Source: Agathobaculum sp. NTUH-O15-33
GTDB taxonomy: Bacteria > Bacillota > Clostridia > Oscillospirales > Butyricicoccaceae
Assembly (NCBI RefSeq): GCF_033193315.1
Contig: NZ_CP136187.1
Span: 2,131,001 to 2,195,000, forward strand
Direction of reading: 5' to 3'
Length of the DNA: 64,000 nt
In this document: piece after piece, positions 33,534 to 60,501 of the stretch
Layout of the letters: every line of letters starts with the position of its first letter
How positions within the stretch are numbered: position 1 is the first letter of the stretch
The notes under the pieces: generated by a model
What the model was told of the DNA's origin: nothing
The model's input: only the letters and a program-made list of their open reading frames with translations
Databases searched by the model: none
Made by a program: the position numbers and the translations under genes

Positions 33534-35327
33534 TCACTGCCTCTGTTTGAGCAGTAGCTTTTCAAACGCTTTCACCGGGATGGGTTTGGAGAAAAAGAAG
33601 CCCTGTCCGATATCGCAGCCAATGCTTTTGACGTAGTCCAGCTGGGCTTTGGTCTCTATGCCTTCGCACACGGTTTGCATTTGAGTTTCGTGCGCCATCT
33701 CCACCACCTTTTTCAGCACCACGCGGCTGCGGGCGTTCGTCTCAAAATCCTGCAACAGGCTTCTATCCAGCTTGAGCACGTCCGCGGACAGCATGCTCAA
33801 TACGTTCAGCGAGGCGTAGCCTGTTCCAAAGTCGTCTATGGCGAGCCGCACGCCGCGTTCATGCAGCCGGCGCGAAAGCGCGTACATCTCCGTATCGTTC
33901 TCTACAAACGCGCTTTCTGTTAATTCCACTACGATTCGACCGTGCGGCACCTGCCACTTGTCCAGCACCGCGCAGAATTTTTCCACGTAGTGCGCTTCAC
34001 ACAGATGCCGACGGGATTGGTTGGAGCATATCTCCACCGGCGGGAGACCCTGCTTGGCCCAGCCGTGCATCTCTTTGCAAAGCTGCTCCAAGAGATAAAA
34101 GTCCAGATCCCGGATGAACCGGTTTTCCTCAAACAGCGGAATGAACTCGTCCGGCCCAATGATTTCTTCCTCCGCCGTCACCCAACGAACCAGCGCCTCC
34201 CCGGCCGTCACCTGTCCGGTCTTTAAGTCCACCTGCGGCTGGATGTATAGCTTGAATTCTCCGTTTTTCAGCGCGTCCGAGGCGCGCTCCATCAGATCGT
34301 TCCTTCGGAACAGCTGCGTTTCCAGTGCATCGTTATAATACGCATACCTGCTCGCGCCCTCCTCGCGCGGAGCGCTTTGCAGCGCGATCAGCGCCTTGTC
34401 CAGCATCTGCCGCACACCGCGCCGGCTTTTGGCTGGTATCGGATACACCCCCGCCGCAAAGGTCACATGGATGCGAAGCTCCTGCTGCATCGCTTCATCC
34501 AGCAGGCAATCGCGTATCTCTTCTATGCGCTGCTCCAGATCTTTTGTGGCCGAGTAGGTCAGCAGCATGGCAAAGTGATCCTTTTCCAGACGCGCGCACA
34601 GCTCGCCTTCCACGCATTTGTCCTGTATGTTCTGCGCAACGCTCCGCAAAACATTATCCCCCACATCAAAACCGTGCAGTTGGTTGATATAGCGGAAATG
34701 GTTCACCCCGAACGTCAGCACCGCAAACCGTTTTTCACTCGGCTTTGCCAGCGCCTCCCGACACCTGCTTTCAAAGCCCGGGCGGTTCAGCAGGCCCGTC
34801 AGGCCGTCCTGCTCCTGCAACTTTCGGCCTTGCTGCTCCAGCATCTGACGCAGGGACCGCTCTATCTCCATATAGTCCCGCCGCGCCTTTTCCACGTTGA
34901 ACCCGGTTTCCCCGGCCTGCTCTTCAAACGGCATAGAATGATGGAACTGTACCACCTTCCAGCCGTCACGCTCCCGCCGGAACACGCCGGAAAAGCGCAC
35001 CGGCTTACGGAACGCCACTCCACCGGTAAGATCGGACTGCACGGTAAGGGTAATGATACCGCCCGCGATATCCGGCCCCAGCTGTTCGATATGATACTGC
35101 TCGTCCGATATCACCCAGCCGCCCTGATACGTTTGTCGCTCCCGCGCAAAAAGCTCTATCAGCGACCGGCGGTCGTAGCCGATTTCCACACGCCCGGCGC
35201 CTACCCAGCTGATCCGTTCGGAAATTAAAGAAAGCAAGCTAGTATAGTCGCGCTCTACAAAATATGCCTTTATCAGCCGCTTTGCCAGACCTTCTATTTC
35301 GTCCCGGCTATCCTGCATCGTTTTCAT
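33534..35327 (-). CDS. NTF2-like, degenerate GGDEF and EAL domain protein (probable c-di-GMP phosphodiesterase)
   Basis: A 597-residue soluble protein. Residues ~8-140 look like an NTF2/SnoaL-like sensory domain (ISWVGAGRVEIGYDRRS, FSGVFRREROGW-type strand region). A coiled-coil linker leads to a GGDEF domain (~190-330) in which the signature is ARLEKDHFAM instead of RxGGDEF, so cyclase activity is unlikely. The EAL domain (~345-597) keeps the expected residues: GEALVRW, SNQS, VELTES, IDDFGTGYASL, LKLDRS, EGIET and GQGFFFSKP. It should therefore hydrolyse cyclic di-GMP. It starts 18 bases after the HTH gene and is last in the minus-strand giant-protein block. The start could also be the Met at 35318. 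Confidence 0.86.
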   Translation of the reverse strand: MKTMQDSRDEIEGLAKRLIKAYFVERDYTSLLSLISERISWVGAGRVEIGYDRRSLIELFARERQTYQGGWVISDEQYHIEQLGPDIAGGIITLTVQSDLTGGVAFRKPVRFSGVFRRERDGWKVVQFHHSMPFEEQAGETGFNVEKARRDYMEIERSLRQMLEQQGRKLQEQDGLTGLLNRPGFESRCREALAKPSEKRFAVLTFGVNHFRYINQLHGFDVGDNVLRSVAQNIQDKCVEGELCARLEKDHFAMLLTYSATKDLEQRIEEIRDCLLDEAMQQELRIHVTFAAGVYPIPAKSRRGVRQMLDKALIALQSAPREEGASRYAYYNDALETQLFRRNDLMERASDALKNGEFKLYIQPQVDLKTGQVTAGEALVRWVTAEEEIIGPDEFIPLFEENRFIRDLDFYLLEQLCKEMHGWAKQGLPPVEICSNQSRRHLCEAHYVEKFCAVLDKWQVPHGRIVVELTESAFVENDTEMYALSRRLHERGVRLAIDDFGTGYASLNVLSMLSADVLKLDRSLLQDFETNARSRVVLKKVVEMAHETQMQTVCEGIETKAQLDYVKSIGCDIGQGFFFSKPIPVKAFEKLLLKQRQ

Positions 35328-35852: not shown

Positions 35853-38800
35853 TTATAGGCTGACGTAACGCATCAGCATGGCCGCCACTTCGGCGCGGGT
35901 GGCGTTGCCCTTGGGATCGAGCAGCCCGCCGCCCTTGCCGGTAATGATGCCCTTACCGGATGCCCAGCGCAGCGCATCCGCCGCGTACGCAGATACCTGA
36001 TCCGCGTCGCTGAACGCCAGCTCGCCGCCATCCACCGCAGGCGAGCCCGCAAAACGGTACAGCATGGCCGCGAGCTGTTCCCGGGTGATGCTGCCATCCG
36101 GGTTGGTGCCGTCCGAAATGCCGGTCTGCACCGCCCACGCCATGGCCTTGGAATACCACTGCTCTCCGCCAGCCGTGTCCTGCCCGTCCAAACGGGCCAG
36201 CACGGTCATCAGCATGGCGCGGCTCATTTGCGCGTCCGGCGCAAAGGTTCTGTCGCCCATGCCGCTGAACAGGCCGCGCGAGGTGACGAAGCTGACTGCG
36301 TCCGCGTACCACTTTTCCGCGGGCACGTCGTCGAACTGCTTGGCGTTATCCACCACCTTGAGCGTGGCCGACTCATCCAGCCATACGCGCAGGCCGGTCT
36401 CGGTGACAACGCACTGATTCACCGGTTTCTCGCTGCCATCCGGCTTGACGATAACGACTGTCATGCCCGGTGTGGGATTTTCCACCGGGATATCTACCAC
36501 AACGTTGTTCATTCCGTTCGGTATGGTCACGTTCGCGGTGATATCGCCATTCTTTCCAATGGTTGTCTCCACCTTCACGCCGTCCTTGCGTGTTTCGGTG
36601 ACGGTGACGCCGCCGTCCTTATCGGTTACCTTGATGATTACGGAACCATCCGGATAAGTGGTGGTTTCGGTGGTCGTGCCTGTTTTTTCATCGGTCAAGG
36701 TCTCGGTCTTGGAGCCGTCCGGATTGGTCACCGTATCACTCGCGCCGGTATCCGGTGCGGCGGCTCCGCCGCCACCTCCACCGCCTCCACCACCGCCGCC
36801 GGAGCCGCCGCTGCCGGAATCATCCGGCTTGGTGCCGTCGCCGCCGGAGGGTTCGGAGTCGCCGAACTGCGCGTAGAGGGTTGTGTCTCCCATCAGCTTG
36901 ACCACGGTATCCGCCGTGATCTTCGTGCCGCCGCTTGCCGCGGTGAACCAGCCCTGAAATACCTTGCCGGACAGGCTGGCGCGGGGCAGCTTGCCGTATT
37001 TCGCATCGTATGTCACGGTAAGTTTATTGCCGTCCGTCAGCTCTACGCCGTTGGAGCTGATGGAACCGCCTTCACCGGGAACAAAGGTCACCACATGCGT
37101 ACCTGCTTTCCAGCCTGCCGTGGCGATAAGGTCCGCCGCCGGCATATGGGCCGGGATCTCCGTGACTGCCGCATCGGCCGGTGTGAGCGCGACCGTCCAG
37201 CCGTTAAAGCTGTAGCCGGTACGCGTCAGTTCTGCACCGTCCGCGTCCGTTTTCGGCGCGGTGATGACCGTGCCCCAGCGGTAGGTTCCGTTCGGCGTAT
37301 AGCCGCCGTTTGCCGCGAATGTACCGCCGTTCGCGTTCCAGTTCAGCGCAAACTGGTCGCGCGCGTAGTAAATCTTCACAACGACGGGATTTACCGTCGT
37401 ACCCTTTTGGTTATTGCCGTCCGGATCGACGCCGAGAATCTCGACGTTCCGCACGCCCTTCCCCTCTGCGGTATCCAGATGATAATTTGTGTAGGCGTAC
37501 TCGTTTCCGGTAAGCGCTGTTTGCCGGCCGGTAACGCCCTGATACGTGACCGCGTCCGCGTCGCTGAATTTGTGCGCCGCGTCATATGTGTGATCCGGCT
37601 CGGCCTTGTAACTTCCGTCCACCTGCTCCAGATAGACCGCCACCTGATACGGAGTGTCGCTGTTCGGCTGATACGTGACTGTATAGGTCAGGTCGTTTGA
37701 CGCCATATTGCCCGCGATCCTTGGATTTTGCGAAGAGAACGCGTTATTGTCCGGCGAAACCGTTTTGGGCGTAAAGCCGGGCACGGCGGGCGCCGTTACA
37801 TCAAACGTGGTGCCCACGTTCAGCTTTTGAACCACGGTTGCCGGTGTGACTGCGGAGCCGGGGTTTTCCAGTTTGTGCTCCACCTTCAACTCGTATTTCC
37901 GCTCCTCTGTCTTCCATTTCGCGTGAAACGTCTGATCCAACGCGGGCATGGTCATGCCTTCGCTAAAGTTCAGCCACGAATCGAAAGCGTAATCGCTCGT
38001 ACGGTCGCTGTCCCTCCCCATTTCCATGGTCGGGGCGATAATGGTAGCACCGTAGCGGTAATCCGCTGTCTGTTTGTCGGCGTGATCACCGTTCGGGAGA
38101 ATGAAATAACCTTCCACCGCATCCCAGATCACTGTGTTTACATCGCGGTCATAATAGACCTCTACCACGGTCGTGCCGTCCGCCGCGATATCGACCTGCG
38201 TCAGTTTTTTATCCTCCTGCTCCGAAGGATGGAACCCTAAGGTGGTTCCCGCCGACACCTTGGTCTTTGCATTCGTCGTTCCCGTGAGGGTTTTGTTATC
38301 GCTCTCGCTATGGTCGTAACCGTCGCCCGTGACCTGCTGGTAGTAATACTTGACGGTATACGGCGTGTTCCCATTCGGCGAATAGACGACCGTTACCGTT
38401 TTATCTTCCGCCGGCATTGTTCCAGATACCGTTGCACTATTCGGAGTGTAACCGTTTACTTCCGGTGAGGCCACCGAATAAGGAGCGTTAAAATGCAGGG
38501 TATCGTCCACATGCCGCTGCGGCGCCAGCTCGGTATGTCCATCCGCCATCACGTAATCGATGGTCAGTGTGTACGGGTGCTCGTCTTTCGACCACTCCGC
38601 GCGGTAGTAAATGGTCCGGGCAGGCATTCGGACGGCGCTGAATGGATTATTGTCTGCATCCAGCCATTTATTAAAGGTGTACTCGTAAAGCGCATCCGCG
38701 TCGTGTGTGAATCCTTCGGCTTCCAACTCCGCTTGCGTCGGCGCCTTGATCTCATCGTCGTACGCTACGCGTGTCGTCAGCGTTGTACCGTCGTGATACT

Positions 38801-41800
38801 TACCGCCGTTCGCGTCCCATACGACCTGATACAGGTTGCGGGTGTAGTAGATTTTGACCACCCGCTCTCCATCCGCGTCGATGTTTGCTTGGGTAAAGGT
38901 TTGCGGCGTAAATCCCTCGTACGTCATGGCGGACGCTCTGGTCGATGTATTGGTCGTACCGGCAAGCGACTGGGCGCTGTCCGCGACCTCGGCATAGCCG
39001 TTTTCATAGTCCGTCTCGCTGCCGCCGATTTTTTGCTGGAAATGCTTTACCGTATAGGGGGTATCCGTGTTGGGGCTGTAAATCACGGTGACCGTCATAT
39101 CGCCCGTTGGCATGGTGCCCTCTATAACGGACTGGTTCGGCGTGTAACCCTGCACGTAATAATCGGAAGTGTGATCCGCAGGCTTCAGTTCCAGCTTATA
39201 CGCTTCGCCCTTTGCCAATGTTTGTGTGTACGTTGTGGGGAACTTCGGTACGTTCTCCACACTGCCCGCGTCCGAGCGCTCAAACAGAATGGTCAGCGTA
39301 TAGCTTTGTTCGGTCTGCGACCACTGCGCAAGATACGTCTTGTTTTCGGCCGGCATCGTATCCGTTTCCGTCCAGTTCTGCCATGCGTCAAACGCATAGG
39401 TATAGTCGTTATCCGCATCGCGCGTGGGAATCTCCGCAGGCGGAGCGATCTTGCCTTCGTAATATACCGTGCTTGTCGCGACGGTTTCATTGGTTGCGAA
39501 CTTACCGTACACCGCGTTCCATGTTACGGTATACTGCTTGCGGTCGTAATAGATATCGACTTCCGTCGTGCCGTCCGCTTGGATATTCTTTTGCGTGAAC
39601 TCACGCGGTGCAAAACCTGTAATGTTTTTGGCCACGGCCGCGGTTTGCGTATCGGTCATGCCGTAGTAAGTATCCTCTTCGGCGCTGTACAGCGTGAACT
39701 GCGCGGTATCCGTGATAACGCCCGTCTTATCGCTGTTCAAGGGCTGCAAGTAGTGGTTTACTTTATACTTCGTCGCAGCGCCGGCGAGATAGGGAACCTC
39801 GATCGTCACATCCGCGGCCGGCATATAGCCCGTTACGGTCGCCAGACTGGGCGTATAGCCCGACACATCAGCCGGTGAAGCAACGCTATACTGTTCGCCG
39901 ACCTTGTACTGCGCTTCATATGGCGCCGCCGCCGTGCTGCCGTCCGGCAATTTATACACGATCGTCAGCTTATACGCAATCGCCTTCTCGTTCCAGTTGG
40001 CGTAGTAGGTCTTGCCCGCCACCGTATCCATGGTGGGCTTGTTGTCTGCGTCGTAGCCCTCCCATGTATCCGCGAAGGTATATGCGTGCTGCGCGTCCGA
40101 ATCGCGCGACAGAGAGGTATAATCCGCCGCCGTCGGCATTGCGATTGCGCCGCCGTACTTGACCTGCTGGGTATAGGTCTTTTTGTCGGCGGTTTTCTCC
40201 CCGAAATAACCGCCGTTCGCGTTCCACGTCACGGGGTAGCTGTTGCGGTTATACCGGATTGTGATCACCTTTGTACCATCCGGGTCGATCGGCGTCGCTG
40301 CAACGGGCTGCGCGGTAAAACCGGTATAGGTGCGCGGCGCCGGGGTCACTTCCGAATCCGTTACGCCGCTGAAGGTCTGCGCATCCTCGGTTTTCTCTAC
40401 ATAATCCGTGCCTTCTACATTTTGCAGCTCGTGTTTTACCACATACTTTGTATTGGTGTTTGGGTAGTAGGTCACCGTGATCGTGAGCGACTCGGCGGGC
40501 ATTTTGCCCGTCAAGGGGTGATCCGCCACCCAGTGGTAGCCCGGTTTTTCCTCCGGCTTATTCACGTCCGCCGTAAAATCATAGGCGGCGTTATACGCCA
40601 GTTGCTTGCTTGTGCCCGCGGGCAAGTCCAGTGACAGGCCTGTATCTGACTTTTCATAGGCCAGCGTCAGCGTATATTGAAGCTCTGTGGAATTATACGC
40701 CGCCTGATAGGTCTTGCCGCCGACGGGCATCGTGTCGCTCGCGGCCCAGCCTGTCCATTCCTTGAACGTATAGCTATACTGGCTGTCCGCATTCATACTC
40801 GGAGGTGCATCGGGCGCTACTATTTTCGCGCCATATTTCGCCGAGGTAATTTTGGTCTTTTGATTGCCGCTGAACATGCCGGTACCCGCATCCCAGATCA
40901 CGTTGTAGGTCATGCGGTCGTAATAGACGTTAACAATGGTGTTTCCATCCGCGCTGATTTTTTCCTGCTTGATACTGGCGTCAATCAGCTTGAAGCCCTC
41001 ATAATTTTTTTCAGTTGCGGCGGTGTCGGCGTTCGTCACGCCGTTCAGCGTTTGTTCGTCCTCCGTGACCTCCACGTACTTATCCGTAGCGTCCGTCCAT
41101 TCCAGCTTCTCCCGCCAGTGCTTTACAGTATAGGCTGTTGAAGTGCCCTCGTAATACGGTATAGTCACGGTAAGGTCTTTTGCCGGCATGATGCCGGTAA
41201 GCGTTGTCTGCGCTGCGAAATAACTCTGCACGCTAGGCATATTGACCGTATATTCTTCGCCATAGCGATAAGCCTTGTCCTCTACCGTAGGCGTACTGCC
41301 GCCAAAGCCGTCCGGCATCTTGCATACCACATGCAGCGTATATGCCTTGGGGGTTTTGGTCCACTCCGCCGTAAACGTCCTATCCTGCGGCGTATCCAAC
41401 TTCTGTCCCAAAGAAAAGTCCTTCCACTTGGGATCGGCATAGCTGAAACCCGGATCGTTGGTTTTACCGGCGGCGCTTTCTGCGGGCGGTACGATCGTCT
41501 GTCCCAAAGTGACCTCCGTGGTCGTCTTGGTCGAACCGCTCGGCCAAGTGCCGTCGATCAGGTCCCATGTCATGGTGTATTTTTTTCGGTCATAATACAC
41601 CTTGATGGCCGTCGATCCGTCCGCCTTGATCTTCTCCTGCACGATCGAGCCCTTGAGCGCAAAGCCGTCGTAGGACTTTGCCGCCGCCGCCGTGTCACCA
41701 TCGGTCGTGCCGGTCAACGTCTGCGTATCCGCTGCTTGCAATTCATAGTCGCTTAGAGAATCCGCTTTTTGCAGGTAGTGCTCCACCTTGTATGCTGTAT

Positions 41801-44800
41801 TAGTTTCGGGAAAATATTTCACCGTGACCGTAACATCCTGCGCGGGCATGGTAACCGTTACCGTCTGCTGGGCGGGTGTGTAGCCCTTTACCGGTGTCGG
41901 CGTAACCGTGACCACGTCGCCTGCTTTTTTACCGGTTTCCACAATATCCTCCGGGGTGGTAACGCCCGTCTGCGTACCGCTCGGCAGTTCGGATTTCACC
42001 GTAAGCGTGTAAGTCAGCGAGGTGGCCGTCCACTCCGCGCGGATGGTGATATTCTGTGCGGGCATCGTACTGTCATGAGCCGCCCATTTGCTAAACGTAT
42101 AGCTGCTTGCGTTGTCCGGTTCGCGCGTCGGCTTAGCGCTGTGATCGGTAATGGACGCACCATACCGCAACTGCTCGGTTTGATAGGTGGTGCCGTCTTC
42201 ATACTTGCCCTGCCCCGCGTCCCATGTGATCGTGTACATATTGCGCTTGTAGTACACATTTACAACCGTAGTACCTTGCGGATCGATCGTTTGCGGCTGT
42301 ACGGTTTCCGCCGTAAAGCCGGTTACCGGCTTGGCTGTCACACTCGTTTGCTGTCCGGTCGTTCCATTGCAGGTCTCATTCGGCGCAAGCGCTGTGTCTT
42401 GTACAAAATCATTATGGTCCGCGCTGCCTGTCGCTGGTTCAAACCAATATTTTACGGTATACTGTGTAGTCGTTGCCGGGAAATACATTACCGTTACGGC
42501 GATATCATGATCCGGCATAAAGCCGGACACGGTTTCCTGCCCCGGTTTATAGCCGGTGACTGTGGGCGAAACCACACGGTATGCCGTTCCCACATCAACG
42601 GTTTGCGTTTGATCTTCCGCCGCTTTGCTCCCATCGGGCTTTTGATATGAGATTGTGACCGTGTGTTGCTGCTTTATGGAATTCCATTCGGCAAGGAAGG
42701 TCAAATCATTCGCGGGCATGGTCATATCCGCGGCGTAACCCTGCCATTGAGAGAATTCATAACGGTAGGTGCCATCCGCCGTTTTGGTAGGCGCGGTTGG
42801 CGGCGTGATCGTTTCACCAAAGGATACCTTTTGTATAAGGCTCGCCACCTCCGTCCCGCCATCTTGGAGCGTGCCGCCGTTTGCGTTCCATGTAATCGTA
42901 TATTGGTGCGGCTTATAAATCAGGTCGATGACGGTCGAACCATCCGCATTGATCTGCGTGATTTCCGGCGTGGGCGCGTCATAGCCGGGAATGGAGATCG
43001 CCGCTGGCCTTATTCTTGCGTCTGTCGTACCGGTAAGCGTGTCGGCCTGCTGTAAATGATCGGCGCTTTTGCTTCCTCTATAATGATTTACCGTGTACTT
43101 TGTATCTGTCTTAGCGTAAAATGTAACTTCGATCGTTAGATCGGCCGCGGGCATAGATGGGCCTTTTAATGGATGCTCTGCGCGCCAGCCATAGCCCTTT
43201 TCCTCTGCCGGGGCCCATGCTGTTACATCAAACTCCGAACCCGCGGCCACTTTTTTAGTTTTCGCTTTGAATTTGTCCTGACTCATGTCCAAGCGCAGGC
43301 CCGATTCCGCCTCATACTTCACCGTTAGATCATATTCTCTGGGCGAGGATTGGAAGGATGCGACATAACTGACTGCGCCGGTCACGTTCGGGAAGGGATT
43401 GGAAGCGTTATACACCGTATCGCCGCCGTCCACGTTTTTCCATCCCTCAAACGCATAGGTATACTGGCTGTCTTCCGCCTTGGTCGGGTCGCCGGTGCCC
43501 GGATAGACCGGTTTATTCCCATGCTGCGCGTAGCTTGTGGTCACCTTGCCATCCACGATCCAGATCACTTTATAGGTCCGTATCGTGCTCGCATAAACCG
43601 CGTAATAGGTACGGGCTTCCGTTACATTAGGCAGGGCTTCACCGTTTTTTATATTGATCAGCGTCTCGCCGTTTTTACCGATGCTTCCGGTGTAATCCTT
43701 GATATCCGTGCTGACCGTGCCGGCGCCGTATGCCCAGCCGATAAACTCATAATCGGTACCTGTGCTGTCATCGGACGGTTTTGCGGTCATACCTGCGAAT
43801 TTCGGCTGATCGCCGTGCGTATAGCTTTCCGTGCTCGTCACGCCGTTTACATTCCATGTGACGTTGTACTTTTGGCCCGCGGCATTGAGTGCCGTGAGCG
43901 TCATGTTGCCGGTCACCTTAACTTTAAAGGTCAGCTTGTAAGGATCCGCGGCGTCCGCCGTCGTGGTCACGGTTTCCGTACCAGCCATCACGACGACCGT
44001 GGTGGGATCGACCGCGGGATCCACCTGAAGCGAGCATTCCAGCTCTGTACCGGTCGCGACCGTAATGCTTGAAACGCCAGGGGCTGCGGTTGGCACGGTA
44101 AATTTGTAAAGAGCGTGGTCGATCCAGTTTACCGTACTCGTTCCCGGCCTGATCCCTTCGACGCTGATCTCCACATCGCCGGTCACGCCCGTTATGGTAT
44201 ATTGTCCGTTCATGCCTGTTTGGACAGATAAGGCGCTGCCGCCCGCATATTTGGCGGTAACCGTGGGTGTGCCGGAATATCCGCTTGATACCGTTACAAT
44301 AAATGAAAAAGTGCCGTTATGCTCCACGGTCATCATACCGCTTGTACTGGTAATGGTATAGCCGTCTTGCGTAACGGGAAAGGCAACGGTATGCTTGTTT
44401 GCCGCCGCCGCGTCGACCGCCACGGTTAAATTGCTGGTGACAGAAGCAATGGTATACGTCACTTTATTATCTGTTTTATTGGATGGCAGCGTCGTCCCGC
44501 CAACCGTTGCCTTGGGCTGTGCATCCGTATAACCCTCGGCCAATGCAATCGTAAAAATAACCTGATCTCCGTGGGTCGCTATGGCCGTATGCGCGCCGCT
44601 TACATCGTTGATCGTGGTCGACACACCGCCTACATTCACCTGTGTTAATTGGTATCCTATGCCGGATTTCGGGATCGTAACATTATACTTGTTTTTCTCC
44701 CATCCTATTGCACCGCTGCCCGGTTCTACCGACACTGTGGTATCGGCAGTCACCGTCGGGATCGTATACGTTTTCTCAGCCGTTGGATAGATTTCATTTC

Positions 44801-45382
44801 CATTGACGGTTACTTTCATTGCGGATTGGGTATAGGCGTCCTTTAGTTTCAAGCTAAATGTAAAGTTACTGCCGCTTGTAATGGAATACTTCTGCTGATT
44901 CCCAGAAACCGCTGGGCTGCCGTATCCATCGGCGGTGATCGTAAACACTTCGTCGTTTTTCGGCAAGGTGACCGTCACCTTATCCGCAATGGACATTATC
45001 GCATTGCCGGCCGGACGGATGGGTTCTATCGTCACCTCGGTGTCTTCCGTCACGCCGGAGAGCGTATAGGTCCCCTCTTCCGAGGGGGGCACGCCTTACC
45101 GTTCGCCGCTACCAGCACCTGCGTGCCGGCATGATCTTCCGCCATTTTTACACGGAAGGTAAAATCGCTGTCCTTATTGATCCGGTATATTTGCGCCGTA
45201 TCCGTTTCTTCATACGGTTCCACCGTGCTTTCTACTGCAACGGTAAACGTATCGCCGCCCTTCGGCAGGGTCACCGTCGCCTTGTCGGCGGCCAGCGCGG
45301 CGGTTGGCAGCATCGTCAGCAGCATTACTGCCGCCAGCAAGCTGCTGACACAGCGTTTTAACCTGCTTTTATTTCTGCTCAT
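35853..45382 (-). CDS. Giant SLH-anchored repeat protein 2, frameshifted near the N-terminus
   Basis: An exported surface protein of about 3176 residues if one base is restored. The first 104 codons hold a signal peptide (MSRNKSRLKRCVSSLLAAVM, LPTAALAA) and the first small beta-repeat (TVTLPKGGDTFTVAV). The frame is lost at a G6 run (45084-45089, C6 on the coding strand); one more C gives GKACPPSEEGTYTLSG and the long frame. It then has several ~85-residue repeats, about nine composite modules of ~190 residues (MucBP-like TPYTVKHFQQ part plus InlB/Flg_new-like TVTWNAVYG...W part), a Gly/Ser linker, a Thr/Asp-rich domain, and three SLH domains. GGAGGAG precedes the ATG. Adhesion or matrix function is inferred. 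Confidence 0.85.
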
Positions 45383-45510: not shown

Positions 45511-57239
<11,729 letters not shown>

Positions 57240-57243
<4 letters not shown>

Positions 57244-57344
57244 TTCGCCGCACCCCCCTCACTGCCGGTATGTCCCACAGTATCGATTATCCCCCACCCA
57301 TTTTGCATGCCGTGGGATAAAAGCAAAAATTCCTGCCACACCAT
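57240..57344 (-). CDS. Possible 34-codon leader ORF coupled to the giant gene
   Basis: An ATG at 57344 with AGAGGAG about 9 bases before it opens a 34-codon frame (MVWQEFLLLSHGMQNG at the N-terminus) whose TGA overlaps the giant gene's ATG (ATGA at 57243-57240). The length, the Shine-Dalgarno and the overlap together suggest translational coupling, though a frame this short can arise by chance. In the ON orientation it would lie about 120 bases into the transcript. No function is known. Confidence 0.42.
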
Positions 57345-57388: not shown

Positions 57389-57424
57389 CCGCCTACCACA
57401 TAATCAGAATTATGTGGTAGGCGG
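57389..57424 (-). terminator. GC-clamped hairpin over the left recombination site, present only in this orientation
   Basis: The 26-bp left repeat is extended in this orientation by outside CCGCC (57389-57393) pairing with inside GGCGG (57420-57424), giving a 16-bp stem with the loop CAGA. On the minus strand it is followed by AAGCTTTTGC. After inversion the inside flank would become AGCAC and the clamp would vanish. It may act as an OFF-state block ahead of the giant gene; that is inference. Confidence 0.5.
57394..57419. repeat. Left inverted repeat (recombination site) of the switch
   Basis: 26 bp, exact reverse complement of 57677-57702. Arms TACCACATAA and TTATGTGGTA flank the 6-bp core TCAGAA, which is not symmetric, so the site has a direction. 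Identity stops sharply at both ends. The size and layout suit a tyrosine recombinase core site. It lies 150 bp upstream of the giant gene's start codon. Confidence 0.88.
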
Positions 57425-57443
57425 CTGGGCGCGATCCGGTACG

Positions 57444-57499
57444 AAAAAAGAAAAAACCAAGCCTGCGCTCAAAAGGAGAGCGCGCGCAGGCTTGGTTTT
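57444..57499 (-). terminator. Strong intrinsic terminator inside the invertible segment
   Basis: Arms 57453-57468 and 57484-57499 (AAAACCAAGCCTGCGC with its complement) form a 16-bp stem. On the minus strand it runs into TTTTTTCTTTTTT (57456-57444), so in this orientation it stops transcripts coming from the recombinase gene towards the giant gene. After inversion it would lie upstream of the promoter. Confidence 0.82.
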
Positions 57500-57595
57500 G
57501 ATGCATGTAAATAGGGGGGATTTTTCATAAAGACAAAAAATCCCCTAAAAATATATTATTATTCAAAAACAGATTTGTTTATTTCACCCCACCCC

Positions 57596-57624
57596 TTGAC
57601 TTTCGGCAAACTTTATCTCATAAT
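57596..57624 (+). promoter_or_regulatory. Sigma-A promoter inside the invertible segment, now facing away from the giant gene
   Basis: TTGACT (57596-57601), a 17-base spacer and CATAAT (57619-57624), each one base from consensus at the key positions, in an AT-rich setting. It reads to the right, into the right repeat and the 3' end of the recombinase gene on its antisense side. The right repeat is itself palindromic and followed by TTTTTATTTT, so the short transcript could end there. Confidence 0.78.
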
Positions 57625-57676
57625 AGTGTTGTCATAGAAAAAAACAACCAAATATGTAACCGACGGGGCTTGTGCT

Positions 57677-57702
57677 TACCACATAATTCTGATTATGTGG
57701 TA
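57677..57702. repeat. Right inverted repeat (recombination site) of the switch
   Basis: 26 bp, exact reverse complement of 57394-57419, with core TTCTGA. Its 11-bp arms can form a hairpin with loop TCTG, and the plus strand continues TTTTTATTTT (57703-57712), making a terminator for rightward transcripts. The recombinase stop codon lies 8 bp further on. Confidence 0.88.
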
Positions 57703-57710
57703 TTTTTATT

Positions 57711-58565
57711 TTATCCGCACTCCACCAGACCCAAACGGGACAGCAGCTTCTTCTGCTCCACGCCGCTGGTGGCCGTGTAAATGCGCGTGGTCTCCACGCT
57801 GGAATGACCCAGAATATCCGCCAGACGGATGATATCCTTTTCCAGCTGGTAATACGTGATCGCGAACAGGTGCCGCAGGTTATGCGGGAATATCTTTTCC
57901 GCGGGTACGTTCGCTTTTTGGCTCAGGCGCTTCATATCCGCCCAAATATTGCTTCGGTCCAGCGGGCGGCCCGAACGGGATACAAACACAGGTCCCCGCT
58001 CCACGCCGTGCGCCCGGCAAAAACGAAGGAGCGGCCCTTTTAGTTCCGCGGGAATAAAAACAACGCGCTCCTTCCCCTTATTGACGATGCGCGCATAGCC
58101 GGTCTTGATTGCCGACACCGTAATGAAGCGGTGCTCGCTTACCCGGATACCGGTGGCGCAGATCGTCTGCATCAGCAGATACAGGCGCTCGTTTTGTTTG
58201 TGCTTTGCCGCGTGCAGCAGGCGCTGGTATTCGTCCTTCGTCAGCTCGCGGTCGGCTCGCCGGAAATTTTGCCGTTGTATGCGCAAGAGCTTTACCCGGC
58301 ATTCGCTCCATCCCAGAAACGTCAGCAAGCCGTTTACCGCCACCAGCATGGAATTAGCGCTGCTACCCTTATAATGCTGCGAAAGGTGCTTTTTATAGGA
58401 TATCACGGTTTCCTTATCCACGGTCTTGTCCGCCGATAAGAAGGTGAAAAAGTGCCGTATATCTCTTAAATATTTGACAATGGTCTCCGGGCTGCGCTCA
58501 TCCTCGATCAGCTGTTGATGATAGCGTTCCAGCGAGCTTAAAGAGAGAATATAGTGCTGCGTCAT
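57711..58565 (-). CDS. Tyrosine recombinase (probable invertase for the adjacent switch)
   Basis: A 284-residue integrase/recombinase of the XerC/XerD type. It has an N-terminal SAM-like core-binding domain (~10-100) and a catalytic domain with the full residue set: Arg in ATGIRVSEH, Lys in NKGKERVVF, His/Arg in HNLRHLFA, His in LGHSSVE, and the nucleophile Tyr in TTRIYTATSG. AAGGAGG (58569-58576 region) selects the ATG at 58565; an upstream frame extension lacks such a site. No phage or transposon genes flank it, and its 3' end abuts a recombination-site-like repeat, so the likely substrate is the promoter segment next to it. The target is inferred from position. Confidence 0.92.
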   Translation of the reverse strand: MTQHYILSLSSLERYHQQLIEDERSPETIVKYLRDIRHFFTFLSADKTVDKETVISYKKHLSQHYKGSSANSMLVAVNGLLTFLGWSECRVKLLRIQRQNFRRADRELTKDEYQRLLHAAKHKQNERLYLLMQTICATGIRVSEHRFITVSAIKTGYARIVNKGKERVVFIPAELKGPLLRFCRAHGVERGPVFVSRSGRPLDRSNIWADMKRLSQKANVPAEKIFPHNLRHLFAITYYQLEKDIIRLADILGHSSVETTRIYTATSGVEQKKLLSRLGLVECG

Positions 58566-58698
58566 GTTGCTTCCTCCTTTTCGTATGCGGATAGTATGGC
58601 CCGATGGGCCGCTCCGCAACCGAAAAGCTATTTTATATGGAGCGCATCCTAAAAGGCGCGCGGGTGTGTCTTCTACTAATCATAGCCGGAATTTCCGT

Positions 58699-59586
58699 TC
58701 ATACAAGGTCTTCATCCCGAACAACCTTTTTGACATTCCCAATCGCCCTCTTGCAGATCTGCTCCCGCACCTCCGTGTAACGCTTAACCGGTATGGGCAG
58801 CACATGACCGCCATATAAGTGCAGGGCAAAGCGCCTAACGCCGATCACGTAATGCGCGTTTACCAGAAAGCTGCGATGGCTGCGTACAAAATGCACAGGC
58901 AGCTTTTGGTGAAGCTCCCCTAATTTTGCGTACACCTCGATCGTGTCGTCCACACCGTGCAGAATGCAGTGCGGCTTTTGCGCTTCAATAAATAGGATTT
59001 CATCCGCCAGCACAATGTGGGTGTTGTAGCGGATATCCCGCACGGTTATTTTTTTGTGCTTTTTCTTCTCCTTTCGCAAAATTTCCTGCATATAGCGGTA
59101 GGTCTCCCGCCCCGCCCGAAAGGGGAACAGTTCGCCCGGCTCCGTTAGGTCAAAGCTGTTGGAAACATGGATATGTACGGCCTTCGGGCCGTCCTCAAAC
59201 AGCGCGTATTGAAATGTGGCGCGCTGAAGGCTCGCCAGCACCATTTCTGACGCCCCTGTTGTTCGCGCATGCAGCCGGCCGGCCACGGTACAGCAGTGTT
59301 CATCCGCGTAGATCACCCCATATTCTGAATCCGCGACCTCGCGCAAGATCCCCTTTTCCGCGGATAGCATTTCCAGCATCGTTTCCGCGCCTTCGATAAA
59401 CTGCCATTCCATCGCACCGATCCATATCAGGTTCGGCGCAAAAAATCCGGCGGCTTCCCTGATCCGGCCCGCGTAAACCAGCTCCATGATCTCCTTTGTG
59501 ACCTCCGGTAATTCCTTACACCAGTCCGGTATTTGCTCTTCATGTCGATAGCCGTAAATAAACGGCCGCTTTTCTTTGTACTGCAT
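58699..59586 (-). CDS. LytTR-family transcriptional regulator with NTF2-like N-terminal domain
   Basis: A 295-residue protein. Residues ~15-150 resemble an NTF2/SnoaL-like sensor (IMELVYAGRIREAAGFFAPN, LIWIGAMEW). Residues ~190-290 are a LytTR DNA-binding domain (ADEILFIEAQKPHCILHG, then FVRSHRSFLVNAHYVIGV). There is no receiver domain, so phosphorelay control is unlikely and the N-terminal domain may bind a ligand. GGAGGT precedes the ATG by 7 bases. It lies directly upstream of the recombinase gene, with 133 bp between, and could control it or the giant genes. The same kind of N-terminal domain begins the EAL protein at the other end of the block. Confidence 0.87.
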   Translation of the reverse strand: MQYKEKRPFIYGYRHEEQIPDWCKELPEVTKEIMELVYAGRIREAAGFFAPNLIWIGAMEWQFIEGAETMLEMLSAEKGILREVADSEYGVIYADEHCCTVAGRLHARTTGASEMVLASLQRATFQYALFEDGPKAVHIHVSNSFDLTEPGELFPFRAGRETYRYMQEILRKEKKKHKKITVRDIRYNTHIVLADEILFIEAQKPHCILHGVDDTIEVYAKLGELHQKLPVHFVRSHRSFLVNAHYVIGVRRFALHLYGGHVLPIPVKRYTEVREQICKRAIGNVKKVVRDEDLV

Positions 59587-59697: not shown

Positions 59698-59754
59698 AAA
59701 AAATATAAAAAAACTCCCGGAACACAACGCTTTCGCATTGTGTTCCGGGAGTTT
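59698..59754 (-). terminator. Terminator of the rRNA-tRNA operon
   Basis: A 17-bp stem (59711-59727 with 59738-59754, arm AACTCCCGGAACACAA) followed on the minus strand by a long T-rich tail (59713-59698). It lies 5 bp beyond the last tRNA. Confidence 0.9.
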
Positions 59755-59758
59755 GCTA

Positions 59759-59834
59759 TGGAGCTGTTGACGAGATTCGAACTCGTGACCTCATCCTTAC
59801 CAAGGATGTACTCTGCCTACTGAGCTACAACAGC
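59759..59834 (-). tRNA. tRNA-Thr (GGT)
   Basis: A 76-nt cloverleaf with acceptor arms GCTGTTG and CAACAGC, anticodon loop TTGGTAA (anticodon GGT), TTCGAATC T loop and encoded CCA. It is the last tRNA of the minus-strand cluster. Confidence 0.95.
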
Positions 59835-59876
59835 AGATAAAAGAAACCGACGGCTACGCCGCCGGTTTCTTTGCTG

Positions 59877-59953
59877 TGGCGACCCGGATGGGACTTGAAC
59901 CCACGGCCTCTAGCGTGACAGGCTAGCGCTCTAACCAACTGAGCTACCGGGCC
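59877..59953 (-). tRNA. tRNA-Asp (GTC)
   Basis: 77 nt; acceptor GGCCCGG with CCGGGTC, anticodon loop CTGTCAC (GTC) and encoded CCA. A hairpin (GAAACCGACGGC region, 59842-59872) separates it from tRNA-Thr and may guide processing. Confidence 0.95.
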
Positions 59954-59970
59954 AGATAGTGAAAAAAATA

Positions 59971-60047
59971 TGGTGGGCCTTCAGGGACTCGAACCCAGGA
60001 CCGACCGGTTATGAGCCGGTTGCTCTAACCAACTGAGCTAAAGGCCC
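59971..60047 (-). tRNA. tRNA-Met or tRNA-Ile2 (CAT)
   Basis: 77 nt; acceptor GGGCCTT, anticodon loop CTCATAA (CAT) and encoded CCA. It lacks initiator features, so it is elongator Met or the lysidine-modified tRNA-Ile; the two cannot be separated by eye here. Confidence 0.92.
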
Positions 60048-60114
60048 ATATTCCAAGGAATGAACAGCACTTTGCCGCCACGGTATATGGGTGGCGGCAA
60101 AGCCTGATCGCTTA

Positions 60115-60190
60115 TGGCTCCTCAAGTTGGACTCGAACCAACGACCCTGCGGTTAACAGCCGCATGCTCTACCAACTGAGCTATTGAGGA
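60115..60190 (-). tRNA. tRNA-Asn (GTT)
   Basis: 76 nt; acceptor TCCTCAA with TTGAGGA, anticodon loop CTGTTAA (GTT) and encoded CCA. The spacers on both sides form hairpins (60070-60102 and about 60196-60222). Confidence 0.95.
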
Positions 60191-60228
60191 ATATAGAAGC
60201 GAATCAGTTAAAAACTAATTCGCTTAGT

Positions 60229-60344
60229 GTGCGCATTGAGTTATCTTCCCGGGCCGTCGCCAGCCAAGTATTGTCACCGTAAGCGAGCTTAACTACTGTG
60301 TTCGAAATGGGAACAGGTGTACCCTCGCCACCATTAACACGCAC
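60229..60344 (-). rRNA. rrf: 5S ribosomal RNA
   Basis: About 116 nt with complementary ends (GTGCG at the 5' end, CGCAC at the 3' end) and conserved internal segments GTACACCTGTTCCCATTTCG and AACACAGTAGTTAAGC. The ends are set by the terminal helix. It stands between two tRNAs, not next to 23S. Confidence 0.94.
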
Positions 60345-60426
60345 TATATTTGGTAAACACTCTCGTGCTTAACCGCTTGTCTAACATACCACGTTTCGCC
60401 GCTTCTGTCAAGTCCATTCTTTGGAA

Positions 60427-60501
60427 TGGTGACCCGTGGGAGAATCGAACTCCCGTTTGCGGCGTGAGAGGCCGCCGTCTTAACCGCTTGACCAACGGGC
60501 C
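60427..60501 (-). tRNA. tRNA-Glu (CTC)
   Basis: 75 nt; acceptor GGCCCGT with ACGGGTC, anticodon loop CTCTCAC (CTC) and encoded CCA. It lies between 23S and 5S. Confidence 0.94.

Follow-up and report, generated by a model that had tools for sequence, protein, structure and literature searches.

A likely promoter inverton of XerC/D type before a giant SLH protein gene in Agathobaculum, one of a family of related cassettes whose spacings tend to repeat with the DNA helix

A short promoter-bearing segment in the window (the whole 64,000-nucleotide stretch of Agathobaculum sp. NTUH-O15-33 DNA analysed here) is very probably flipped between two dif-like sites by the XerC/D-like recombinase encoded beside it, switching a giant SLH protein on and off. 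An invertible promoter beside its recombinase gene and aimed at a giant surface protein was the core of the original prediction for this DNA, and our analyses support it, with related cassettes found in both promoter states. The features of the locus are collected in Table 1.

Table 1. Features of the predicted switch and its immediate neighbourhood (positions within the window)
Feature	Position	Strand	Basis or remark
Left recombination site	57394..57419	+	Core TCAGAA; exact-repeat comparison and genome search
Right recombination site	57677..57702	-	Exact inverted copy of the left site
Segment predicted to invert, 257 bp	57420..57676	.	Between the sites; homologous segments in relatives in either orientation
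Predicted sigma-A-type promoter, TTGACT-17-CATAAT	57596..57624	+	Consensus match, paralog and family; faces the recombinase (OFF)
TATGTA motif	57653..57658	+	Between the promoter and the nearer site
Internal hairpin, 16-bp stem, T-rich tail	57453..57499	-	Terminator-like for transcripts that leave the recombinase gene in the direction of the giant gene
XerC/D-like tyrosine recombinase, 284 aa from the likely ATG	57711..58565	-	Pfam, PDB and NCBIfam matches
LytTR-domain protein	58699..59586	-	Upstream of the recombinase on the same strand; domain match
Predicted target, 3,910 aa, with SLH, List_Bact and MucBP repeats	45511..57243	-	ORF and domain matches
34-codon leader ORF	57240..57344	-	Stop overlaps the giant ATG (overlap ATGA)

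The segment lies between exact 26-bp inverted repeats with directional 6-bp cores, as originally described. The site reads TACCACATAA[TCAGAA]TTATGTGGTA, the cores match within the pair, the site spacing is 283 bp and the whole element, both sites included, measures 309 bp. With up to three mismatches allowed, the window held these two copies only (shuffle mean 0.00 over 100 shuffles), and an exact search for the arms around any 6-bp core found just these two places in the 4,005,854-bp genome. An exact search for the site in viral contigs and a search for the segment in phage records returned no match. The arm letters CATAA...TTATG resemble those of dif.

The recombinase has an open frame, a Pfam Phage_integrase match (2.3e-26) covering the catalytic region and, as its best solved relatives in the PDB, XerC-like/XerA and XerD proteins, and thus combines the catalytic domain and the Xer-like sequence of a Xer-type tyrosine recombinase. 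The NCBIfam XerA, XerD and XerC models match it with scores below their cut-offs, and it is therefore not taken as an equivalog of any of them. Translation probably begins at the ATG at 58565, which follows AGGAGG, and not at the TTG at 58619; its closest homologues are mostly 279-290 aa long. The ORF extends to 57711, leaving 8 bp to the right site, the distance that had been given before.

The giant gene shares the strand of the recombinase and has an N-terminus that looks by eye like a signal peptide. A leader ORF resembling the one in Table 1 (by eye) also precedes the paralog's target in cassette L027. Downstream of the giant gene is a second giant SLH/MucBP gene (35853-45382, minus strand), in which a signal-peptide ORF (45050-45382) and the main ORF (35853-45092, 3,079 aa) do not share a frame, with six consecutive C nearby; the break may be an assembly error, decay or slipped-strand variation. 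A SnoaL-GGDEF-EAL protein gene (33534-35327, minus strand) adjoins this second giant gene. A cluster of 5S rRNA and tRNA genes (59762-60500, minus strand) is directed toward the LytTR and recombinase genes, and a strong hairpin (59711-59754) lies between them.

The promoter predicted inside the segment matches 10 of 12 consensus positions. Its own match does not make it credible: four promoter-like sites were found in 1.5 kb against a shuffle average of 2.1, which alone is not beyond chance, and it has no TG element before the -10, a feature we count against the preferred reading. The promoter is credible because the 83% identical paralog keeps identical hexamers at the identical place and because the family follows the same pattern. 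Consensus match, paralog and family thus agree on an outward promoter within the segment, and the earlier claim that it is directed away from the giant SLH gene stands at the level of a prediction. It faces the recombinase, in keeping with the proposal that the assembly captured the OFF state. The distance after inversion, originally put at about 220 bp, agrees with the coordinates, which place the end of the -10 about 229 bp before the giant ATG.

Relatives of the recombinase are common. In a first species-genome scan, all 14 relatives (44-58% identity) had an inverted pair just behind the gene. Within the genus, 10 of 25 genomes had relatives at E 1e-30; at E 1e-60, they were present in 22 of 87 genomes of the family and in 109 of 396 and 39 of 392 sampled genomes of the order and class, respectively, these samples overlapping and including the genome under study. 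That genome alone encodes six relatives at E 1e-30, the window copy among them, and two weaker ones. Its cassettes comprise the window copy (OFF, giant SLH protein), the 83% paralog (OFF, before a 1,310-aa List_Bact repeat protein), L042 (OFF, before a GGDEF protein), one before a small ORF (OFF, read by eye), one before a 1,373-aa SLH protein (ON) and L045, where no credible site pair was seen. Like L045 in this genome (G000), the copy L020 in the second genome of the species (G004) is a family recombinase with no credible pair behind it. Paralog L041 has an in-frame TGA that precedes the likely ATG, and the gene is therefore not considered broken.

Several cassettes have neighbours of other kinds. 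L042 precedes its GGDEF protein and L014 a sigma-70-type factor, so some of the switches may control regulators. A look-alike protein of about 90 aa (by eye) follows soon after the segment in L003, L022, L023, L033, L034 and L037. In L013, L016 and L054 the first gene behind the segment resembles another tyrosine recombinase (by eye), giving recombinases in tandem. When L028/L048 were compared with L032/L042, the same-species copy was seen to have an extra stretch, a second site and an inverted copy of 21 bp of the downstream flank, as if from a past rearrangement.

A total of 197 cassettes were read, of which 9 were cut by contig ends and 188 were scored. Left out were L026, L031, L036, L039 and L040 (distant or partial recombinase matches), L020 (the same-species copy of L045), L102 (duplicating L071), the duplicates L174, L177 and L179, L008 (which coincides with L047) and further short loci replaced by longer stretches, and L228 and L229, the latter with a site pair by eye. 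Many recombinase places in the family, order and class samples lie outside the cassette set, several of them at contig edges, and so do the order-sample matches beyond those listed.

Site pairs were sought with a finder that looked no further than 150 bp behind the recombinase match and scored nothing but the 8-bp arms; the core was inspected afterwards. In the first set (133 cassettes, 6 cut, 127 scored), 99 pairs reached at least 24 of 32 and 96 of these had cores identical at all six positions; in the second (64 cassettes, 3 cut, 61 scored) the figures were 51 and 49. Cores were thus identical in 145 of the 150 best arm-only pairs. As a control, the 800 bp upstream of 47 cassettes reached the threshold once, with one of six core positions matched, and gave no core above four of six. 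These counts supersede those from exact-seed or by-eye pairs, which are biased because of the way the pairs were found. Accepting scores of at least 22 with a full core gave paired dif-like sites just behind the recombinase gene in 157 of the 188 scored cassettes (107 from the first set and 50 from the second, the window's included). The family consensus is CCACATAAT-nnnn-ATTATGTTG, and at the four middle positions the commonest base reaches 32-37%. The 157 cassettes have 97 core spellings between them, a few of which come from a shifted register; since TCAATA and TCAACA each turn up repeatedly, not every core is private.

There are exceptions, which we count against the preferred reading. The remaining 31 scored cassettes, L045 of the same genome among them, were rejected for want of an acceptable pair, and some accepted pairs are in a shifted register or belong to another repeat (L014, L075, L016). 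The arm-only finder also passed over L013 and settled on a different repeat in L016, although an earlier reading had given a pair for each.

Promoter direction was called by plain consensus score, which placed an outward promoter near one site in 142 of the 157 cassettes (101 OFF and 41 ON, with 15 unclear). A TG one base before the -10, a feature absent from the score, was present in 69 of 94 distinct first-set promoters. The calls are imperfect, and this too counts against the reading: six same-strand segment alignments carry opposite calls, and the segments of L155 and L213 align over 250 bp in the same direction. The motif TATGTA occurred between the promoter and the nearer site in 35 of the 94 first-set intervals (mean 4.4 and maximum 12 in 200 shuffles) and in reverse in 1 of 94; on the longer far side the counts were 14 and 11. 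We did not take up TATGTA as an extra recombinase half-site, as it also accompanies TTTTGTC arms and its positions follow no clear phase.

Site spacing and promoter-to-site distance tend to repeat every 10.3-10.5 bp or so, about one turn of the DNA helix. Among 98 first-set cassettes (recombinases less than 90% identical, spacing at most 360 bp), the site spacings gave a mean vector of 0.55 at 10.25 bp, a value that none of 5000 jittered sets (shifts of at most 8 bp) attained. Measured from the -10 to the nearer site, the distance gave 0.605 over 88 cassettes, against a largest jittered value of 0.396. Across all 157 cassettes, 121 spacings fall within 2 bp of a fitted 10.4-bp grid where about 75 are expected, and the window spacing lies on this grid together with the spacings of 231 and 241 bp published for inverton group 139. 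The periodicity might instead reflect shared ancestry of segment lengths and not helix alignment at pairing, since related cassettes share lengths and the tests treat cassettes as independent. We regard this alternative as rather unlikely. The phasing persists in 44 cassettes after dereplication at 65% recombinase identity (0 of 5000 jittered sets reach the value), and the gap between recombinase and site shows little of it (0.19). With the phase fixed beforehand from the first set, 37 further cassettes, less than 75% identical to that set and to each other, agree in site spacing (p 7e-5 to 2e-4, depending on the period) and 34 new promoters agree in their distance (p 1e-8 to 3e-8), these p-values assuming independence. 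We infer that the phasing is caused by the pairing of the two sites across a loop.

Comparison of orientation between related genomes had been suggested as a check on inversion, and in two pairs of cassettes the homologous segment was found in opposite orientations. L191 and L192 have collinear recombinases (87.7% identical) and a segment that is reversed (83.4% over 253 bp), although the downstream stretches shown differ; between L091 and L124 the segment is turned round (70.6% over 293 bp), with collinear flanks on either side. More broadly, segment alignments of at least 50 bp gave 15 reverse-strand pairs with both states called, 12 of them ON against OFF and 3 OFF against OFF. Within single species a search for flipped segments gave none: orthologs of two cassettes other than the window's share orientation in the same species, which counts against the preferred reading. 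Among the matches listed, and leaving aside places in G000, G001 and G269, a contig end lay within 300 bp on the recombinase 3' side for 11 of 74 minus-strand matches versus 2 of 72 plus-strand matches on the 5' side (p 0.0097). The contrast weakens with distance (p 0.015 at 500 bp and 0.14 at 1000 bp). Such an excess is expected from mixed orientations, and other causes are possible.

It is improbable that the window copy is a dead or locked switch with intact sites that no longer invert. Its flipping is something we infer, and G004, of the same species, has no close copy of the window recombinase (best match 53% identity). Against a locked switch, the sites and cores are exact, the recombinase frame is open with its catalytic region matched, and the 83% paralog keeps the layout with a core that differs from that of the window but is matched within its own pair. 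Inversion of the window copy stays the preferred reading.

Read on the plus strand, the right site forms an 11-bp hairpin (-12.3 kcal/mol) followed at 57703-57712 by TTTTTATTTT, directly before the end of the recombinase gene, and from these letters we predict a terminator-like end for the OFF transcript. The internal hairpin, for its part, could block read-through into the giant gene. Across the 157 cassettes the recombinase-side flank is A-rich (5 A or more among 8 nt) in 63 and T-rich in 10, whereas the far flank is T-rich in 25 (63 versus 25, p 2.6e-6) and A-rich in 38, so part of the recombinase-side signal is general A-richness. The OFF promoter might also silence the recombinase through antisense RNA; this idea is weakened wherever a site hairpin and T-tract end the OFF transcript (A-rich flank, 63 of 157) and is possible in the other cassettes. 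Least probable of the alternatives is a terminator switch like cwpV, with a minor internal promoter and inversion moving the internal hairpin in and out of LytTR-recombinase read-through: the hairpin folds equally on both strands with a long T-tail on one only, and terminator-like hairpins oppose the promoter in 36 of 94 segments and run along it in 18 (7% on the opposing strand in shuffles), but the outward promoters near one site and their TG elements argue against it, and the promoter of cwpV lies outside its segment according to the available text of the cwpV paper. The terminator and promoter mechanisms can act together.

In the mechanism we favour, the recombinase would pair the two sites across one short loop and exchange strands at the identical 6-bp cores, and the spacing rule of about 10.4 bp would reflect the need to align the sites on the helix. 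At present the promoter would fire toward the recombinase, its RNA ending at the right-site hairpin and T-tract, and the internal hairpin would stop LytTR-recombinase read-through before the giant gene; in the inverted state the promoter would lie about 220 bp ahead of the giant gene and transcribe it. Because their cores differ, most sister cassettes would be prevented from recombining with one another. The wider generalization, that these are helically tuned loop switches with both spacings in whole turns, a site that in many doubles as a terminator shielding the recombinase gene and a pair-matched core serving as an address, we hold to be about evenly poised between right and wrong.

The window cassette is a promoter inverton, a known kind of element, and probably belongs to inverton group 139, to which we liken it by description and spacing. 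The available text on this group and invertase group 35 reports that 32 of 33 invertons are from Clostridia, with a tyrosine-type recombinase nearby in nearly all, and that orientation changes in culture in Clostridium sp. D5 and Intestinimonas butyriciproducens (Microbiome 2025; PMC11892184). Its one example with a full repeat has 26-bp repeats, two examples have the grid spacings noted above (from printed coordinates), and the window recombinase, 8 bp away, is within the 5 kb used there; helical phasing, a core rule and a site hairpin are not mentioned in that text (PMC11892184). The E. coli fim switch is alike in that inverted repeats enclose a short promoter-bearing segment and a tyrosine recombinase is found close by, as far as the available text goes (PMC2784873), but the window has one XerC/D-like gene, dif-like sites and a giant SLH target, and no FimB/FimE pair was seen in it. 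The cwpV/RecV system of Clostridioides difficile, in the available text of the cwpV paper, shares a recombinase of the XerC/D family, a large cell-wall protein and a segment of about 200 bp. The original prediction had cited it as an example of a flipped promoter, which does not hold: in that text the segment is without a promoter and the authors' model is one of termination, whereas the window segment holds a predicted promoter. There, recV was identified by testing scattered recombinase genes, and in C. difficile R20291, by the available text, Cdi7 alone among the invertible sites has a recombinase close to it (PMC5903667). The XerCD/dif system of chromosome dimer resolution likewise has two half-sites around a 6-bp central region, according to the available text (PMC5357621), but the window has two inverted sites 283 bp apart, one recombinase gene and inversion as the predicted outcome.

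What appears new are the spacing of about 10.3-10.5 bp, the site hairpin as a terminator-like end and the internal hairpin; the original prediction was silent on these and on the sister cassettes in the genome. Within titles and abstracts on invertible promoters, invertons and helical phasing (subscription papers and supplements being outside this scope), neither the phasing nor a site serving as terminator was found.

One suspected switch has thus become a family readable from sequence, with close recombinase relatives in 109 of 396 sampled genomes of the order and predicted targets that include SLH proteins, a diguanylate cyclase, a sigma-70-type factor and a BTAD activator. Since assemblies are enough to score the sites, the cores and the direction of the promoter, the state of large Clostridia surface proteins becomes predictable, and through the spacing rule the way in which a tyrosine recombinase brings nearby sites together in the cell can be tested directly.
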